A DNA stretch of 64,000 nt from Candidatus Woesearchaeota archaeon. Lineage in GTDB: Archaea; Nanobdellota; Nanobdellia; Woesearchaeales; UBA11576. Shown here piece after piece: positions 4,893-42,558 of this stretch. Within the stretch, counting starts at the first letter, position 1, and each line of letters starts with the position of its first letter. Position numbers and translations under genes: made by a program. Below the pieces are notes generated by a model. The model was not told where the DNA came from, made no database searches, and worked only from the letters and a program-made list of their open reading frames with translations. The stretch spans positions 248,001-312,000 of the forward strand of contig JABJCP010000035.1 in assembly GCA_018668595.1 (NCBI GenBank). The letters are read 5' to 3'.

Positions 4893-5414
4893 ATGAAATA
4901 CAGAAAAGCTTATGTTCCAATAGATCCTAATAAACCAATTATGAGGGGAATCAAAACACCATCTGAATTAGAGAAAAAAGTAATTCGAGATAAGCGAGTT
5001 AATGGTATTTTTAGAAAACTAACGGATTGGTACTACAAACCTAAGTCTTTTGAGAGAAGTGGTAAGATGTATACTCGACTTGGTGTTAGGTATTTTCAAA
5101 AAGGATTGATGAATAGTTATGGTGGTCTTTTGAGGTTTCTGGGAGGAAAAAAGGGTCCTGGTAATTATTTTATTGGAAACAAGAGAACTGTATCTGATAT
5201 GGTGACTTATGAAGGCTGGACTAGATTCAATGAATTAATTCACATGCCTCTTATGTTTACTTGCGGTTATGACATGCTTGAAAATTTATCTCAAGGAAAT
5301 TATGGTGCTGCTGCAGGAGAAGGGGCATTAGTTTTGCTTAACAGTTATTGCGTATTTCTTCAACGTTACAACAGAGCTAGAGTTTACAACACATTAGATC
5401 TCAAGTTAAAATAA
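4893..5414 (+). CDS. Membrane-associated acyltransferase-like protein, paralog A
   Basis: This 173-residue protein is a paralog of the one at 6600-7124. Both share FRKLT-WYY-PKSFERSGK, then YT-LGV-YFQK-LM, and an identical end LQRYNRARVYNTLDLKLK. The layout 'FE--G-LY--LG---', ending in a hydrophobic stretch and QRYNR-R, recalls the glycosyl-4,4'-diaponeurosporenoate acyltransferase (CrtO-like) family. That assignment is tentative. Start ATG 4893 (MKYRK) is chosen because it is the position conserved in the paralog. Promoter and 3' flank are also duplicated. Confidence 0.5.
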   Translation: MKYRKAYVPIDPNKPIMRGIKTPSELEKKVIRDKRVNGIFRKLTDWYYKPKSFERSGKMYTRLGVRYFQKGLMNSYGGLLRFLGGKKGPGNYFIGNKRTVSDMVTYEGWTRFNELIHMPLMFTCGYDMLENLSQGNYGAAAGEGALVLLNSYCVFLQRYNRARVYNTLDLKLK

Positions 5415-7322: not shown

Positions 7323-7859
7323 ATGGAGGTGAGTATTTTCGCAAAGACTAAAATAGTTCTACAAACACATGAACCAAGTATGAATCCTACGTCAGAGGAA
7401 CTTGCAAAGATTGTTATGGCACGAATTGGACTTGAACCTAGAAAATTAGGAAGTACTGATAAAATGTATCGTTGTCTTCTTGAATTGTATGAGCGTGCAA
7501 AGGTTTCTTACAGAGAAAAAAAGTTAGAATCTTCAGTTATGACTGTCGAGGAAATGGCATTTTATGCAGGAATTACTAGGCAGACAATGTACGATTACCT
7601 CAAGCGTTGGCTTATTTTAAATTTAATAGAAAAGACTAGTTACATTAAAGAAAACAAAGTTGTTATTGGCTACAAACTCAATGGGAATACATTGGAGCAA
7701 GCTTTTGAAAAAGCACATCATAACATTACAAAGAATCTAAATGAGACAATGCAGTACATACAACAGCTTCAGAAACTAATAAAGAATGAGAAGATCAGTA
7801 ATACTCAAAAACTAAAGGCAACAGAAGATACATTAACCACAACAGATTTAGCAAGTTAG
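7323..7859 (+). CDS. Helix-turn-helix transcriptional regulator
   Basis: A 178-residue protein. Residues about 70-100 (VMTVEEMAFYAGITRQTMYD then YLKRW) form a clear helix-turn-helix with recognition helix TRQTMYDYL. The C-terminal third is helical and polar. Upstream of the HTH a conserved-looking segment KMYRCLLELYERAKVSYREK is typical of a regulator family I associate with DPANN genomes. The start ATG 7323 overlaps its own GGAGGTGA; no better downstream start with proper spacing is visible. A TATA box precedes it at about 7247. A structured RNA element begins 54 bases after its stop. Confidence 0.7.
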   Translation: MEVSIFAKTKIVLQTHEPSMNPTSEELAKIVMARIGLEPRKLGSTDKMYRCLLELYERAKVSYREKKLESSVMTVEEMAFYAGITRQTMYDYLKRWLILNLIEKTSYIKENKVVIGYKLNGNTLEQAFEKAHHNITKNLNETMQYIQQLQKLIKNEKISNTQKLKATEDTLTTTDLAS

Positions 7860-7913: not shown

Positions 7914-8095
7914 GCAGCACTACCTTGGCATACAGTTGAATTAGTTTACTAATTCAATTGTGTTAAAACGCAGTTTTGATTCTGTCAGCGACGAGCATAG
8001 CGAGAAGCTGATTTATTGTGATAAAACGGCTGATTCATGCAAGCCGTTTTAGTTATTTCAAATTCATAGAATTTGATGAATTGCCGTAGTGCTGC
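7914..8095 (+). ncRNA. Structured RNA element, copy 1 of 3
   Basis: A 182-base element with a closing stem: GCAGCACTAC-ctt-GGCA (7914-7930) pairs with TGCC-GTAGTGCTGC (8082-8095). Inside are five hairpins: 7936-7957 (TTGAATTAG/CTAATTCAA), 7963-7979 (TTAAAAC/GTTTTGA), 7985-8011 (TCAGC/GCTGA around a GA-rich loop with GC-ATA-GC), 8023-8050 (AAAACGGCT/AGCCGTTTT with loop GATTCATGCA) and 8059-8075 (CAAATTC-ATA-GAATTTG). Two further copies share the architecture with compensatory base changes. Plus strand is preferred because of the GA-rich internal loop and position after a plus-strand gene; strand is not proven. Function unknown. Confidence 0.75.
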
Positions 8096-28936: not shown

Positions 28937-29884
28937 ATGAGATTTTTAAAAAAGAAAAAAGTTCTTGATGAACAAAGTATTGAAGAAAAACAAGAAGTAG
29001 TTAATGATTCTGGTAATGTGTATTTAGTTCCTAAAGGATGTCCTATTTGTAGGAAAGATCTAAAAGGAAATGATCAGGTTAAGTATTTCTGTGAAAAATG
29101 TAATGTTTTATTTGATAGAAAAGATATTCGTTCTTATGAAGATCGCATAAAAGATGTAGAAGAAGAGAAAAAGTCAAAGCAAGAAAAAGAAGATAGAGAA
29201 TTAAATGAAGCTAAAGAAGAATCATTGGAGCAAATAAGAAATGCAGTAGAAGAAAAAATAACAAAGTCAGAACAAGACGATGTTTCAAAAGAAGAAACTT
29301 CTACAGAAAAACAAAAAGCAGAATCTGTGGACGAGAAAGAACAACAACTAGAAAAACCAAAAGAACAACAACTAGAAAAATCAAAAGAAAAACCAAAAGA
29401 ACAAGAAATGCAAAAACCTATTGTCCAATCAGAAAAATCAAATGTTCAACCAAAAAAACCTATTGTTCAATCAGAAAAGTCTGTTGATACTGAAGATGAA
29501 TTAATGCAAGCTTTGGGTATGAGTGATTCAAAAAAAAATGTAGAACAAGATGTAAAAAAAGATCCAGAACCTGCACCTCGACAATCACAATCTGAAGAAA
29601 AACAAGTTGAAGAAAAAACAGTAGAAGAAAAGCAAGTAGAAAAACCAACACAAAAAACAAAAACTAAATCAAAAGGAGAATTCACTCTCGAAACTCAAGA
29701 AAAAGTTATTGCAAGTAGTGAATCTAAAAAAATTCATGCAGGTAATTGTCATTTCGTAAGTATGATTCAACCAAATAATCGTATTTATTTTGATTCAATT
29801 GAAGAAGGCGAAAAAAAAGGTTATGAACTATGTGTTTGTCTTAGAAGATTAAAAGCAATAATGCGTGCCAAAGCAAAAGAGTAA
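28937..29884 (+). CDS. Zinc-ribbon protein with disordered middle and Ada-like C-terminal metal-binding domain
   Basis: A 315-residue protein in three parts. Residues ~33-62 hold a zinc ribbon (CPIC ... CEKC). Residues ~70-255 are charged low complexity rich in E, K and Q, with short repeats such as QSEK, EKPKEQ and KPIVQSEKS. The C-terminal ~45 residues (SKKIHAGNCHFVSMIQPNNR then IYFDSIEEGEKKGYELCVCL) resemble the Cys-rich metal-binding domain at the N-terminus of Ada. It is co-transcribed with the glycosyltransferase gene. A copy of the structured RNA element starts 33 bases after its stop. Function unknown. Confidence 0.6.
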   Translation: MRFLKKKKVLDEQSIEEKQEVVNDSGNVYLVPKGCPICRKDLKGNDQVKYFCEKCNVLFDRKDIRSYEDRIKDVEEEKKSKQEKEDRELNEAKEESLEQIRNAVEEKITKSEQDDVSKEETSTEKQKAESVDEKEQQLEKPKEQQLEKSKEKPKEQEMQKPIVQSEKSNVQPKKPIVQSEKSVDTEDELMQALGMSDSKKNVEQDVKKDPEPAPRQSQSEEKQVEEKTVEEKQVEKPTQKTKTKSKGEFTLETQEKVIASSESKKIHAGNCHFVSMIQPNNRIYFDSIEEGEKKGYELCVCLRRLKAIMRAKAKE

Positions 29885-29917: not shown

Positions 29918-30097
29918 GTGGCACTACCTTGGCATGGATGTTTGAACATCAGGTGTTCAATTTGTTCGAGCGTAGCTCGATTATGTCTACAATGAGCAAA
30001 GCGAATTGTTGATTTAAATCAGAAAACGACCTGATTTATGCAAGGTTGTTTTCGTTGTTTAAAATTCATAGAATTTTATAAACTGCCGTAGTGCTAC
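29918..30097 (+). ncRNA. Structured RNA element, copy 2 of 3
   Basis: A 180-base element, most diverged of the three. Closing stem GTGGCACTAC-ctt-GGCA (29918-29934) pairs with TGCC-GTAGTGCTAC (30084-30097). Hairpins: 29942-29960 (TTGAACA/TGTTCAA), 29966-29980 (TCGAGC-GTA-GCTCGA), 29989-30009 (ACAAT/ATTGT around GAGC-AAA-GCGA), 30022-30053 (GAAAACGACCT/AGGTTGTTTTC with loop GATTTATGCA) and 30061-30077 (AAAATTC-ATA-GAATTTT). Stem sequences differ from the other copies but pairing is kept. It lies between convergent genes. Confidence 0.75.
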
Positions 30098-39882: not shown

Positions 39883-41364
39883 ATGAAAAGGGGTTTACTA
39901 GCTTTATTAATTGTCGTTCTATTTAGTCTATTTTCAGCTCCATTAGCACAAGGTATTGAAGTTATTGTACCTGCATTTTATGTTGATATAGAGCCAGTGC
40001 GTGATGAAATTACATTAGAAGAATATGCTATTTTCAATGTAACTGTAAAAAATGTGCAGGATTTTGAAGATAATTTTAGAATAAGACCTCTTGAAGATTT
40101 AAAATGGGGATTTCAAACAGTTCCTTTAACAGATTATTTCTCAGGTAAGACTATTGATTCAGGTGAAGAAGCAACTATTGTTATGTATCTAAAACCTGCA
40201 AAAAATATGGATAGTGGTAAATATAACATTAAGCTTGAGATTGAAAGTGAAGAAAGTGACCGTCTTGTAACATCTGTTCTAAAAATTGGTGTTGGTATGC
40301 CTGTAATTGAAGGTATTTATACTCCTTTAACTAATTTTGATATTGAATTAAATGTTCCTGATCGTATTGATCCTCGTTCAAAATATACTATTGATCTTCA
40401 TCTTGTTAACAATAACGCACTTGTGTTAAACGACATAACTGTTTTATTTGAAAGTGATTTAATTGGTTCTGATCAAACATCTCTTGATCTAGGTTCTAAT
40501 GAAGATAAAACTGTTCAGTTTGCAGTTCAGTTTCCGTCGGATACCAAACCAAATTCAGGTTATGCTAAAGTCACAGTACTTTACAAAGATGAAAAAGTGT
40601 TTGAAGAATCTCAAAATTTTAATATTGTAGGATATACTCCTGCATTTGAAAAATCAATTAATACATCTGAATTTTCTGGCAAGACTATTCGCAGAGTTGA
40701 TATTGTAAGTTTGAGTAATGTTGAAAAAACTGAACATATTAAATTAGAAACATCCTCTTGGGAGAATTTTTTTACATCTTCAAATCCGCAAGCAGAAGTT
40801 ATTGAAGATGAAGAAACAGGTTTGATGTATTATTCATGGATTGTAACTCTTGAACCTGAAGAGTCAACTCAATTAGAAATAACAACATCTTATAGACCGT
40901 TATACATTTTAGCAGTTTTCATTATTGCAGGTTTGATTTTGTTTTATGCTTTTAGAAATCCTATTGTTGCAAAAAAACAAATCCAGGCTATTCGCAGATC
41001 TCATGGTGCAGTAACTCATGCAAAGATTTTAGTTACTGTTAAGAATAGGGGTTCTAAAACTTTGAAGGATTTAAAAATTGTTGAACGTGTTCCAAAGTTG
41101 TTTAATGTTTCAAGTACTTTTGATGGAACTCTTAGTCCTACAAGAAAATATACTCATTCTAAAGAAGGAACTGTTTTAGAGTACAAGCTTGATCGAATGG
41201 ATCCACACGAGGAGAGAATTATTAAGTATGAAGTTAGTCCATCTCTTCACACAGTGGGCGAAGTAACTCTTAAGCCAACAATAATTACGTTCAAGGCAAA
41301 ACAGAACTTACAACTAAAATCAACCAGTAATCAGCTAACCTTAGATGGCGAACCTAAGTTGTAA
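39883..41364 (+). CDS. Exported membrane protein with Ig-like domains
   Basis: A 493-residue protein with signal peptide (LLALLIVVLFSLFSAPLAQG). Extracellular beta-sandwich repeats follow, with phrases such as YAIFNVTVKNVQDFEDNF and SKYTIDLHLVNNNALVLNDI, typical of COG1361/NEW3-like domains. A membrane helix (PLYILAVFIIAGLILFYAF, ~residues 340-358) precedes a cytosolic-side or second beta domain with ILVTVKNRGSKTLKDLKIVE, a DUF11/CARDB-like strand pattern. Probably an envelope structural protein. A copy of the structured RNA starts 87 bases after the stop. Confidence 0.7.
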   Translation: MKRGLLALLIVVLFSLFSAPLAQGIEVIVPAFYVDIEPVRDEITLEEYAIFNVTVKNVQDFEDNFRIRPLEDLKWGFQTVPLTDYFSGKTIDSGEEATIVMYLKPAKNMDSGKYNIKLEIESEESDRLVTSVLKIGVGMPVIEGIYTPLTNFDIELNVPDRIDPRSKYTIDLHLVNNNALVLNDITVLFESDLIGSDQTSLDLGSNEDKTVQFAVQFPSDTKPNSGYAKVTVLYKDEKVFEESQNFNIVGYTPAFEKSINTSEFSGKTIRRVDIVSLSNVEKTEHIKLETSSWENFFTSSNPQAEVIEDEETGLMYYSWIVTLEPEESTQLEITTSYRPLYILAVFIIAGLILFYAFRNPIVAKKQIQAIRRSHGAVTHAKILVTVKNRGSKTLKDLKIVERVPKLFNVSSTFDGTLSPTRKYTHSKEGTVLEYKLDRMDPHEERIIKYEVSPSLHTVGEVTLKPTIITFKAKQNLQLKSTSNQLTLDGEPKL

Positions 41365-41451: not shown

Positions 41452-41634
41452 GCAGCACTGCCTTGGCATATAGTTGAATTAGTTTACTAATTCAAGGATT
41501 TCAAAGCTTGCTTTGATAATGTCAGCGACGAGTGTAATGAGGAGCTGATGTGGGGCGTAAGAACTGCCGATTCATGCAGGCAGTTCGTCGAGATGTCATG
41601 CGCCATAGGCGATGATAATCTGCCGCAGTGCTGC
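41452..41634 (+). ncRNA. Structured RNA element, copy 3 of 3
   Basis: A 183-base element. Closing stem GCAGCACTGC-ctt-GGCA (41452-41468) pairs with TGCC-GCAGTGCTGC (41621-41634); the G-C here replaces the A-T of copy 1. Hairpins: 41474-41495 (same as copy 1), 41501-41516 (TCAAAG-CTTG-CTTTGA), 41522-41548 (TCAGC/GCTGA around GAG-TGTAAT-GAG), 41561-41586 (GAACTGCC/GGCAGTTC with loop GATTCATGCA) and 41597-41614 (CGCC-ATA-GGCG core). It lies between two plus-strand genes. Confidence 0.75.
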
Positions 41635-41766
41635 AAAAAAGAAAAAAAACAAACCCAGCACTAACTCACTTTGCTCGTTGGTTTACATCAAAACTTCATT
41701 TTGAACAATATTGAACAGAGTTTAATTCAACAAATTTATATAATAACTCCTCTTAATATATCTCGA

Positions 41767-42558
41767 ATGAAAGAAAAAATAAAACAACTTTGCGAATACA
41801 TTGAAAAAGAAAATAATGTTGAAGTACTCTTCGCAGTAGAGAATGGAAGCAGAGCGTGGAGAATGGAAAGTAAAAATAGTGACTATGATGTTAGATTTGT
41901 TTTTGTAAGACCTACAAAAGATTACATTCAGATTGATACGCCTAGAAATGTTATTGAAGCTGCGTTTGATAAAGATGGAAATAGCTGTCCAGTCAAAGGA
42001 TCTTTAATTGATATTTCTGGTTTTGATATTTTTAAGTATGTTAGATTACTTTCGAATTCAAATCCTACAACAATTGAATGGTTAATGAGTGATATTGTTT
42101 ATTGTGGAAAACAGAATGAAATTTTCAAATCATTTGCTTTGAATAAATTCACTAAAAAAACATTGTATCTTCATTATAAGTCTCTGTGCAAAAATAATTA
42201 TTTGAACTATATTAAATCAGGTAAATTAATCACATATAAAAAATATCTTTATGCCTATAGAGGTCTTGTTAATGCAAAGTGGGTTGTTAATAAAAATACT
42301 ATTCCTCCAATAATATTTGCTGATGCAATGGCTGAGATGAAAAATATTATTCCAAATAATATATTAAATAATTTAGAGAATATAATCGAATTAAAGTCAC
42401 AGGGAAAAGAGAAAGATATTATTCAGAATATTGTAGAACTGGATAAGTATATTGAGACATTTTTTGAATATGAATCAGAAACACCTGATGATGAAACCAA
42501 CAGAGATTTTGATGAATTAAATGATGAACTAAGAAAAATTGTTTTAGGTGATTTTTAA
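41767..42558 (+). CDS. RlaP-like nucleotidyltransferase
   Basis: A 263-residue protein. FAVENGSRAWRMESKNSDYD then VRFVFVRP is the nucleotidyltransferase motif of the PF10127 (RlaP/YcgL-type) family, and GSLIDISGFDIFKYVRLLSN and NPTTIEWLMS match its following blocks. These proteins are associated with RNA repair or with phage-borne functions; substrate unknown. ATG 41767 is chosen because a TATA box AATTTATATAAT lies ~28 bases upstream. The next small gene starts one base after the stop. Confidence 0.8.
   Translation: MKEKIKQLCEYIEKENNVEVLFAVENGSRAWRMESKNSDYDVRFVFVRPTKDYIQIDTPRNVIEAAFDKDGNSCPVKGSLIDISGFDIFKYVRLLSNSNPTTIEWLMSDIVYCGKQNEIFKSFALNKFTKKTLYLHYKSLCKNNYLNYIKSGKLITYKKYLYAYRGLVNAKWVVNKNTIPPIIFADAMAEMKNIIPNNILNNLENIIELKSQGKEKDIIQNIVELDKYIETFFEYESETPDDETNRDFDELNDELRKIVLGDF

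Follow-up and report, generated by a model that had tools for sequence, protein, structure and literature searches.

Three structured repeats in a Woesearchaeales genome as probable copies of a MITE-like mobile hairpin element

Bacterial MITEs of the ERIC/NEMIS type are multi-copy, intergenic units of about 100-200 bp with foldable transcripts, and ERIC has effects on the mRNA of its neighbouring genes that depend on its orientation (PMC2229807). ERIC is the closest precedent for the element described here, which has the same general properties but is archaeal, has a multi-junction covarying core with an invariant bulge and loops, and is found in at least three vehicles with terminal inverted repeats (TIRs); the comparison implies no relation in sequence. 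Archaeal MITEs moved in trans by insertion sequences (IS) have also been reviewed (PMC10969869), and the compact copies of our element resemble them in having TIRs, 9-bp target duplications and a matching TIR on an IS5-like partner; a term search of that review found no description of a covarying internal core, whereas in the genome studied here an extended, TIR-less form dominates. REP/BIME palindromes and their RAYT partners (PMC6006769, PMC8266576) are likewise high-copy extragenic hairpins, but the Woesearchaeal element is larger and multi-hairpin, and the genomes rich in it are without a Y1 transposase. In the archaeal bulge-helix-bulge (BHB) splice motif, a 3-nt bulge adjoins a 4-bp helix (PMC7714728). 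The same arrangement is seen in our element, which differs in being without the second bulge and the outer helix. The attC sites of integrons are hairpins with extrahelical bases, which often lie right behind a co-oriented gene and occur as species-specific family variants. These properties, too, recur in the Woesearchaeal copies, which are however dispersed in core operons, with no cassette arrays and no R/L box consensus seen.

The three sequences under study lie in a 64-kb window, i.e. the whole stretch of DNA that was analysed, which belongs to the 2.3 Mb genome of an uncultured archaeon (G000). An initial annotation of the window had reported three plus-strand copies behind plus-strand genes, and the coordinates hold: copy 1, of the extended form (182 nt), occupies 7914..8095, copy 2 (180 nt) 29918..30097 and copy 3 (183 nt) 41452..41634, all on the plus strand and 54, 33 and 87 nt past the stop of the preceding gene, respectively. 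These plus-strand genes code for proteins of 178 aa with a weak Crp-like HTH (7323..7859), of 315 aa without a Pfam match (28937..29884) and of 493 aa with an Ig-like match that is sub-threshold only (39883..41364); a further co-oriented plus-strand gene (41671..42558) starts 36 nt past copy 3. The closing stem, the CTT bulge, the GGCA/TGCC helix and the five hairpins in fixed order, all of which had been annotated, were found to be real. In copy 1, the 5' arm of the closing stem P1 (GCAGCACTAC, 7914-7923) pairs with 8086-8095, the CTT bulge lies at 7924-7926, the P2 5' arm GGCA (7927-7930) pairs with TGCC (8082-8085), the loop of P3, the fourth hairpin, reads GATTCATGCA (8032-8041), the tip of the fifth hairpin is TTC-ATA-GAA (8063-8071), and P2' and P1' close the element as TGCC GTAGTGCTGC (8082-8095). 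The same parts are present in copy 2 (P1 29918-29927/30088-30097, CTT 29928-29930, P2 29931-29934/30084-30087, loop GATTTATGCA 30033-30042, fifth hairpin tip 30065-30073) and in copy 3 (P1 41452-41461/41625-41634, CTT 41462-41464, P2 41465-41468/41621-41624, loop GATTCATGCA 41569-41578, fifth hairpin tip 41602-41610), each on the plus strand. The fold of copy 1 is predicted at -70.7 kcal/mol, as compared with -41.0 ± 3.8 in shuffles (z = -7.8).

The description of the element as three copies of about 182 nt is accurate for the window but has to be revised for the genome, in which there are about 50 copies (39 matches by BLAST, 54 by the covariance model R1), and for the conserved unit, which is a core of about 100 nt. 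This core consists of the 10-bp closing stem P1, the CTT bulge, the 4-bp P2, a stretch leading to a CAG linker, the P3 hairpin with the loop GATTYATGCA, a variable P4 hairpin, and P2' and P1'; the extended form of about 180 nt seen in the window is the core plus three inserted hairpins (hairpins 1-3), added in G000, and weak matches in related genomes span only about 100 nt. The annotation had proposed searching the genome and its relatives with a covariance model, and in addition to the copies in G000 a covariance-type model of the compact core (R2), run on 353 genomes of the order Woesearchaeales, finds matches in 19 of them, a patchy distribution, with 69 in G261, 47 in G000, 37 each in G040 and G318, 35 in G324 and 32 in G323. 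Scanning 84,980 species by pattern gave many matches, of which those with a valid fold come only from genomes labelled as Woesearchaeota or from SM23-78 (G277), filed as Euryarchaeota and belonging to the same order. The four matches of a pattern scan of IMG/VR are all without the fold, a search of Rfam at gathering and permissive thresholds gave nothing credible, in line with the earlier failure to recognise a known RNA class, and literature searches found no description of the hairpin element. The family is previously unlisted, order-specific, structured and multi-copy. As separate observations, G000 also carries solo 5' halves, in which a P1 arm and CTTGGCA are followed by nothing further, sometimes in tandem (past the copy at L026; L014, at C31:19151; L395, at C14:62622; L397, at C22:169066; L041); at L042 and L016 there are head-to-tail junctions in which a 3' end and the next 5' end use one palindrome, GCAGTACTGC; and L047 and L051 (G040:C24) are enlarged copies, which carry several nested hairpins in the bulge and after P4 and exceed 200 nt.

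The explanation favoured here, which we hold to be reasonably probable, is that the three window sequences belong to a non-autonomous, MITE-like family of mobile hairpins in Woesearchaeales, a mobile hairpin element having been among the options that were raised at the outset. In G000, four compact copies (L322-L325) lie inside elements with GGCTAATATGAA..TTCATATTAGCC TIRs, and the three that are well preserved have 9-bp target duplications, L324 (GAGAAAAAT), L325 (TTAAAGTTC) and L323 (ACA(A/G)ACAAG), with none seen at L322. Duplications of 9 bp also flank L225 (CTCTTGAAC) and L260 (GAAAAACAA), and the one at L239 is degenerate; together with L222 and L103, these make up the compact TIR-flanked copies, which show the TIRs and, though not legibly in each copy, the duplications by which MITEs are defined. 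The core is found in other vehicles as well, namely in GGTAAAGTCAAGTT elements with 9-bp duplications in G261 and in GGCTCTGT..ACAGAGCC elements with duplications of about 8-9 bp in the f21 genomes. A 1018-bp IS in G261, which is bounded by GGCTAATATGAA-type TIRs, codes for a DDE_Tnp_1, IS5-family-like transposase (NCBIfam score 131.6, just below the cut-off of 140), and a homologous transposase C-terminus is present in multiple copies at contig ends of G000, with GGCTAATATGAA-type TIR ends; an autonomous relative with a matching TIR was found for the GGCTAATATGAA type only. That the compact TIR-flanked form is mobilised in trans by a transposase is well supported, because its TIRs are common to IS5-family IS, from which we infer the act itself by standard MITE logic. 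Target duplications in combination with a related transposase had been named in the initial annotation as findings that would speak against a functional RNA, and both are found in G000 where this core occurs in its compact form. Several near-identical copies of the TIR elements terminate assembly contigs in G000, and the count of mobile-form copies in this genome is an underestimate because contigs end about one k-mer inside GGCTAATATGAA elements or their IS; such ends are seen on C6, C12, C15-C17, C29, C33, C37, C40 and C41.

Two further observations concern the vehicles. A further structured core, distinct from the first (..GTCGAGCTT..GACAAGGGGG..) and apparently of another hairpin family, lies in GGCTCTGT/GGCTTAGT elements and is seen in G261 at L256:2862-3051, L222:6774-7023 and L160:~5150-5273. 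Several copies of G324 (L148, L149, L150 and L152) have outer flanks of about 20 nt in common (TACCTCGTGCTTCAGCTCGA), which may represent a further vehicle.

The extended copies, to which those of the window belong, are multi-copy, non-coding and insertion-polymorphic. An inverted repeat outside P1 is present in 1 of 35 of them, as compared with 5% by chance, and direct repeats at their ends are not above chance (p = 0.06). Since the extended copies are without TIRs or above-chance duplications, we infer the arrival of the window copies, which would have descended from insertions of the compact kind, gained hairpins, and either lost a visible vehicle or never had one. In the mechanism proposed, the core would move inside TIR elements, with an IS5-type transposase acting in trans on the compact form; its stems turn over fast yet stay Watson-Crick paired, with the loops fixed, at orthologous loci too; and the pairing would be kept at the level of DNA, be it as a cruciform, as a single-stranded hairpin, or by arm-to-arm template switching or inter-copy conversion. 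The insertions would then survive chiefly where the mRNA tolerates or profits from them, namely just past stop codons and, in the two AT-rich genomes, chiefly as sense copies.

The turnover of the copies can be followed between related genomes. At orthologous junctions in the congener G001, no element is present at pnp, prs, three ABC operons, uvrC, pyk, elp3 and others. For the sister species G318 and G320, eight orthologous loci were compared, of which four have kept the copy in both, and in G320 two copies have decayed and two are absent. The compensatory changes reported for the three window copies are real and reach far beyond them, with both-side changes in 32 of 54 pairs across 22 copies from G000. 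For 66 distinct compact copies, the covariation score is 0.623, as compared with 0.163 ± 0.009 in shuffled data and at most 0.137 with slid partners; 92.4% of the cells are paired, and 493 cells are changed on both sides as compared with 148 ± 10 in shuffled data. The paired cells are, however, about 98% Watson-Crick, with G.T no more frequent than A.C: internal pairs in the compact set comprise 1214 Watson-Crick, 13 G.T and 14 A.C, and those in the strict G000 set 1058, 13 and 7. An early excess of G.T over A.C in the G000 set (36:8) was gone (13:7) once poorly paired columns had been removed. The share of G.T is about 1% in the element and 6% in tRNA, the latter from a small control of eight Woesearchaeal tRNAs, in which G.T is tolerated by design (157 Watson-Crick, 10 G.T, 0 A.C). 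With pairing that is Watson-Crick only and strand-symmetric, the data are more easily explained by DNA hairpins, or by a rewriting of one arm from the other, than by RNA helices under selection. The reading of the covariation as the hallmark of a functional RNA is not supported in the form in which it was put: the pairs are Watson-Crick only without a G.T excess, copies are absent from orthologous sites in G001, and turnover is fast.

A related explanation, compatible with the mobile-hairpin reading, holds that the covariation is mutational in origin, in that template switching in the palindrome or gene conversion between copies rewrites both arms, while only the loops are selected or serve as conversion anchors; we regard it as a serious possibility, though one that falls short of an even chance. 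In three orthologous copy pairs, the P3 arms differ at 52-56% of positions with near-complete compensation and the loop at 3%; in the pair L230/L191, four contiguous base pairs have changed jointly between flanks that are about 93% identical; and at orthologous loci, blocks of 4-8 contiguous base pairs change as a unit while the flanks are 93-99% identical. The stems diverge faster than the flanks and the loops, and the Watson-Crick-only, strand-symmetric pairing points in the same direction. Block rewriting of both arms, by template switching or inter-copy conversion, is the simplest mutational reading, stepwise compensation being also possible. Against a purely mutational origin, the conserved junctions, bulge and loops require some selection, and the rewriting is not universal, as several copies decay freely.

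What is conserved in the compact copies is, invariantly or nearly so, GATT.ATGCA, the loop-closing C-G pair, CTTG and CAG; the CTT bulge, always of 3 nt, is followed by a helix of exactly 4 bp, and the core also shows a bulged A and tandem G.A steps. That the CTT, the CAG linker and the loop are so strictly kept in several families and in three TIR vehicles suggests that the core does more than hitch-hike. A bolder and tentative proposal, which we consider rather improbable, is that the core is a modular, functional RNA or DNA hairpin without described precedent, which several unrelated TIR vehicles would have adopted and carried behind genes; a host or transposon factor would read its loops, and the two arms of its stems would be rewritten jointly and wholesale on species time scales. 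Separately, some copies with unlike stems have a P3 loop that is interrupted by an extra hairpin, always at one position (GATT^YATGCA), which marks this position as an insertion hot spot (L033, L038, L329, L330, L332, L380 and L382 in G000; L358 in G320, of another family).

A less likely rival is a cis-acting RNA of 3'-UTRs or intercistronic regions with a role in stability, processing or termination, perhaps a domesticated mobile repeat like ERIC, in which the sense strand would fold in the mRNA and a protein would bind the loops. Based on simple ORF or codon-model gene calls, 33 of 37 copies in G000 sit behind a co-oriented gene, and in tandem gene pairs the ratio of sense to antisense copies is 21:3 in G000 and 17:1 in G261 (38:4 jointly), both AT-rich genomes. 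Copies are often located 3-20 nt past a stop codon and are present within core operons (purA-purB, uvrC-uvrB, PNP-phosphoribosyltransferase and three ABC operons). The strictly conserved loops and linker, the bulged A and tandem G.A steps, the retention of copies with compensated stems at orthologous loci, and the precedent of orientation-dependent mRNA effects of ERIC (PMC2229807) are likewise consistent with such a role. It has to be noted that the sense bias is not expected from plain DNA transposition and in this respect argues against the mobile reading. Two other causes of the orientation were considered and rejected: GC skew (replication strand, IS200/605-like) has opposite signs on contigs C21 and C22, on both of which the copies are mostly on the plus strand, and A-tract target polarity is about equal in tandem intergenics (A7 48, T7 44). 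Of the remaining arguments for an effect at RNA level, the sense bias is the strongest. A cis-RNA is made less likely by the lack of a G.T excess and the low G.T share as compared with tRNA, by the tandem pairs of four f2-family genomes, in which sense and antisense are balanced (8:7), by the orthologous operons of G001 without the element, by decay and loss between sister species, by upstream genes that are diverse housekeeping genes, among which no shared regulon was found, and by the lack of an Rfam match. The 3'-UTR regulator suggested initially is a possibility in view of how strongly the copies follow the orientation of their upstream genes in G000 and G261, but is not favoured overall. 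More generally, an RNA function is kept possible by the co-orientation in the two AT-rich genomes and the strict loop conservation, and the classical regulatory RNA is a possible but less favoured reading than a jumping DNA hairpin.

An element that moves as single-stranded DNA, by an HUH Y1 transposase (IS200/IS605, REP/RAYT) or by integron attC-like recombination with the CTT as extrahelical bases, is largely disfavoured and improbable. A hairpin on one strand with a fixed bulge and loops, and extended copies without target duplications, would agree with it; on the other side, Y1_Tnp has 0 matches in the copy-rich G000, G261, G040, G323 and G324, the orientation is independent of GC skew, TIRs of the classical kind and 9-bp duplications are present on the compact copies, and the ends carry no conserved GTT/AAC core. 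Excision by the archaeal splicing endonuclease at a BHB formed by the CTT and the 4-bp P2, giving a circular RNA, is very improbable: the invariant 3-nt bulge and the helix of exactly 4 bp make up half of the BHB definition (PMC7714728), but no helix follows beyond a second 3-nt bulge (pairing 0.258, as compared with 0.315 in shuffled sequences) and no convincing intragenic copies were found. Hardly more can be said for a family of trans-acting small-RNA genes, with which the many intact structured copies and the conserved exposed loop would agree, but for which no recognisable promoter or terminator of their own was established, the copies being set tightly between operon genes and turning over between species. 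A retroposed repeat borne by a reverse transcriptase was rejected, with 0 matches to RVT_1 in G000.

If the mobile-hairpin reading is correct, the element would be a case in which textbook covariation, usually taken as proof of a functional RNA, arises from a family of mobile DNA hairpins, which is of relevance for the calling of structured-RNA candidates from metagenomic data. A name is also given to a repeat that is abundant between the genes of Woesearchaeales and that offers a natural system for asking whether the arms of palindromes co-vary by selection or by template switching. Should the orientation bias reflect an RNA function, the family would represent a new, transposon-derived element of archaeal 3' ends.
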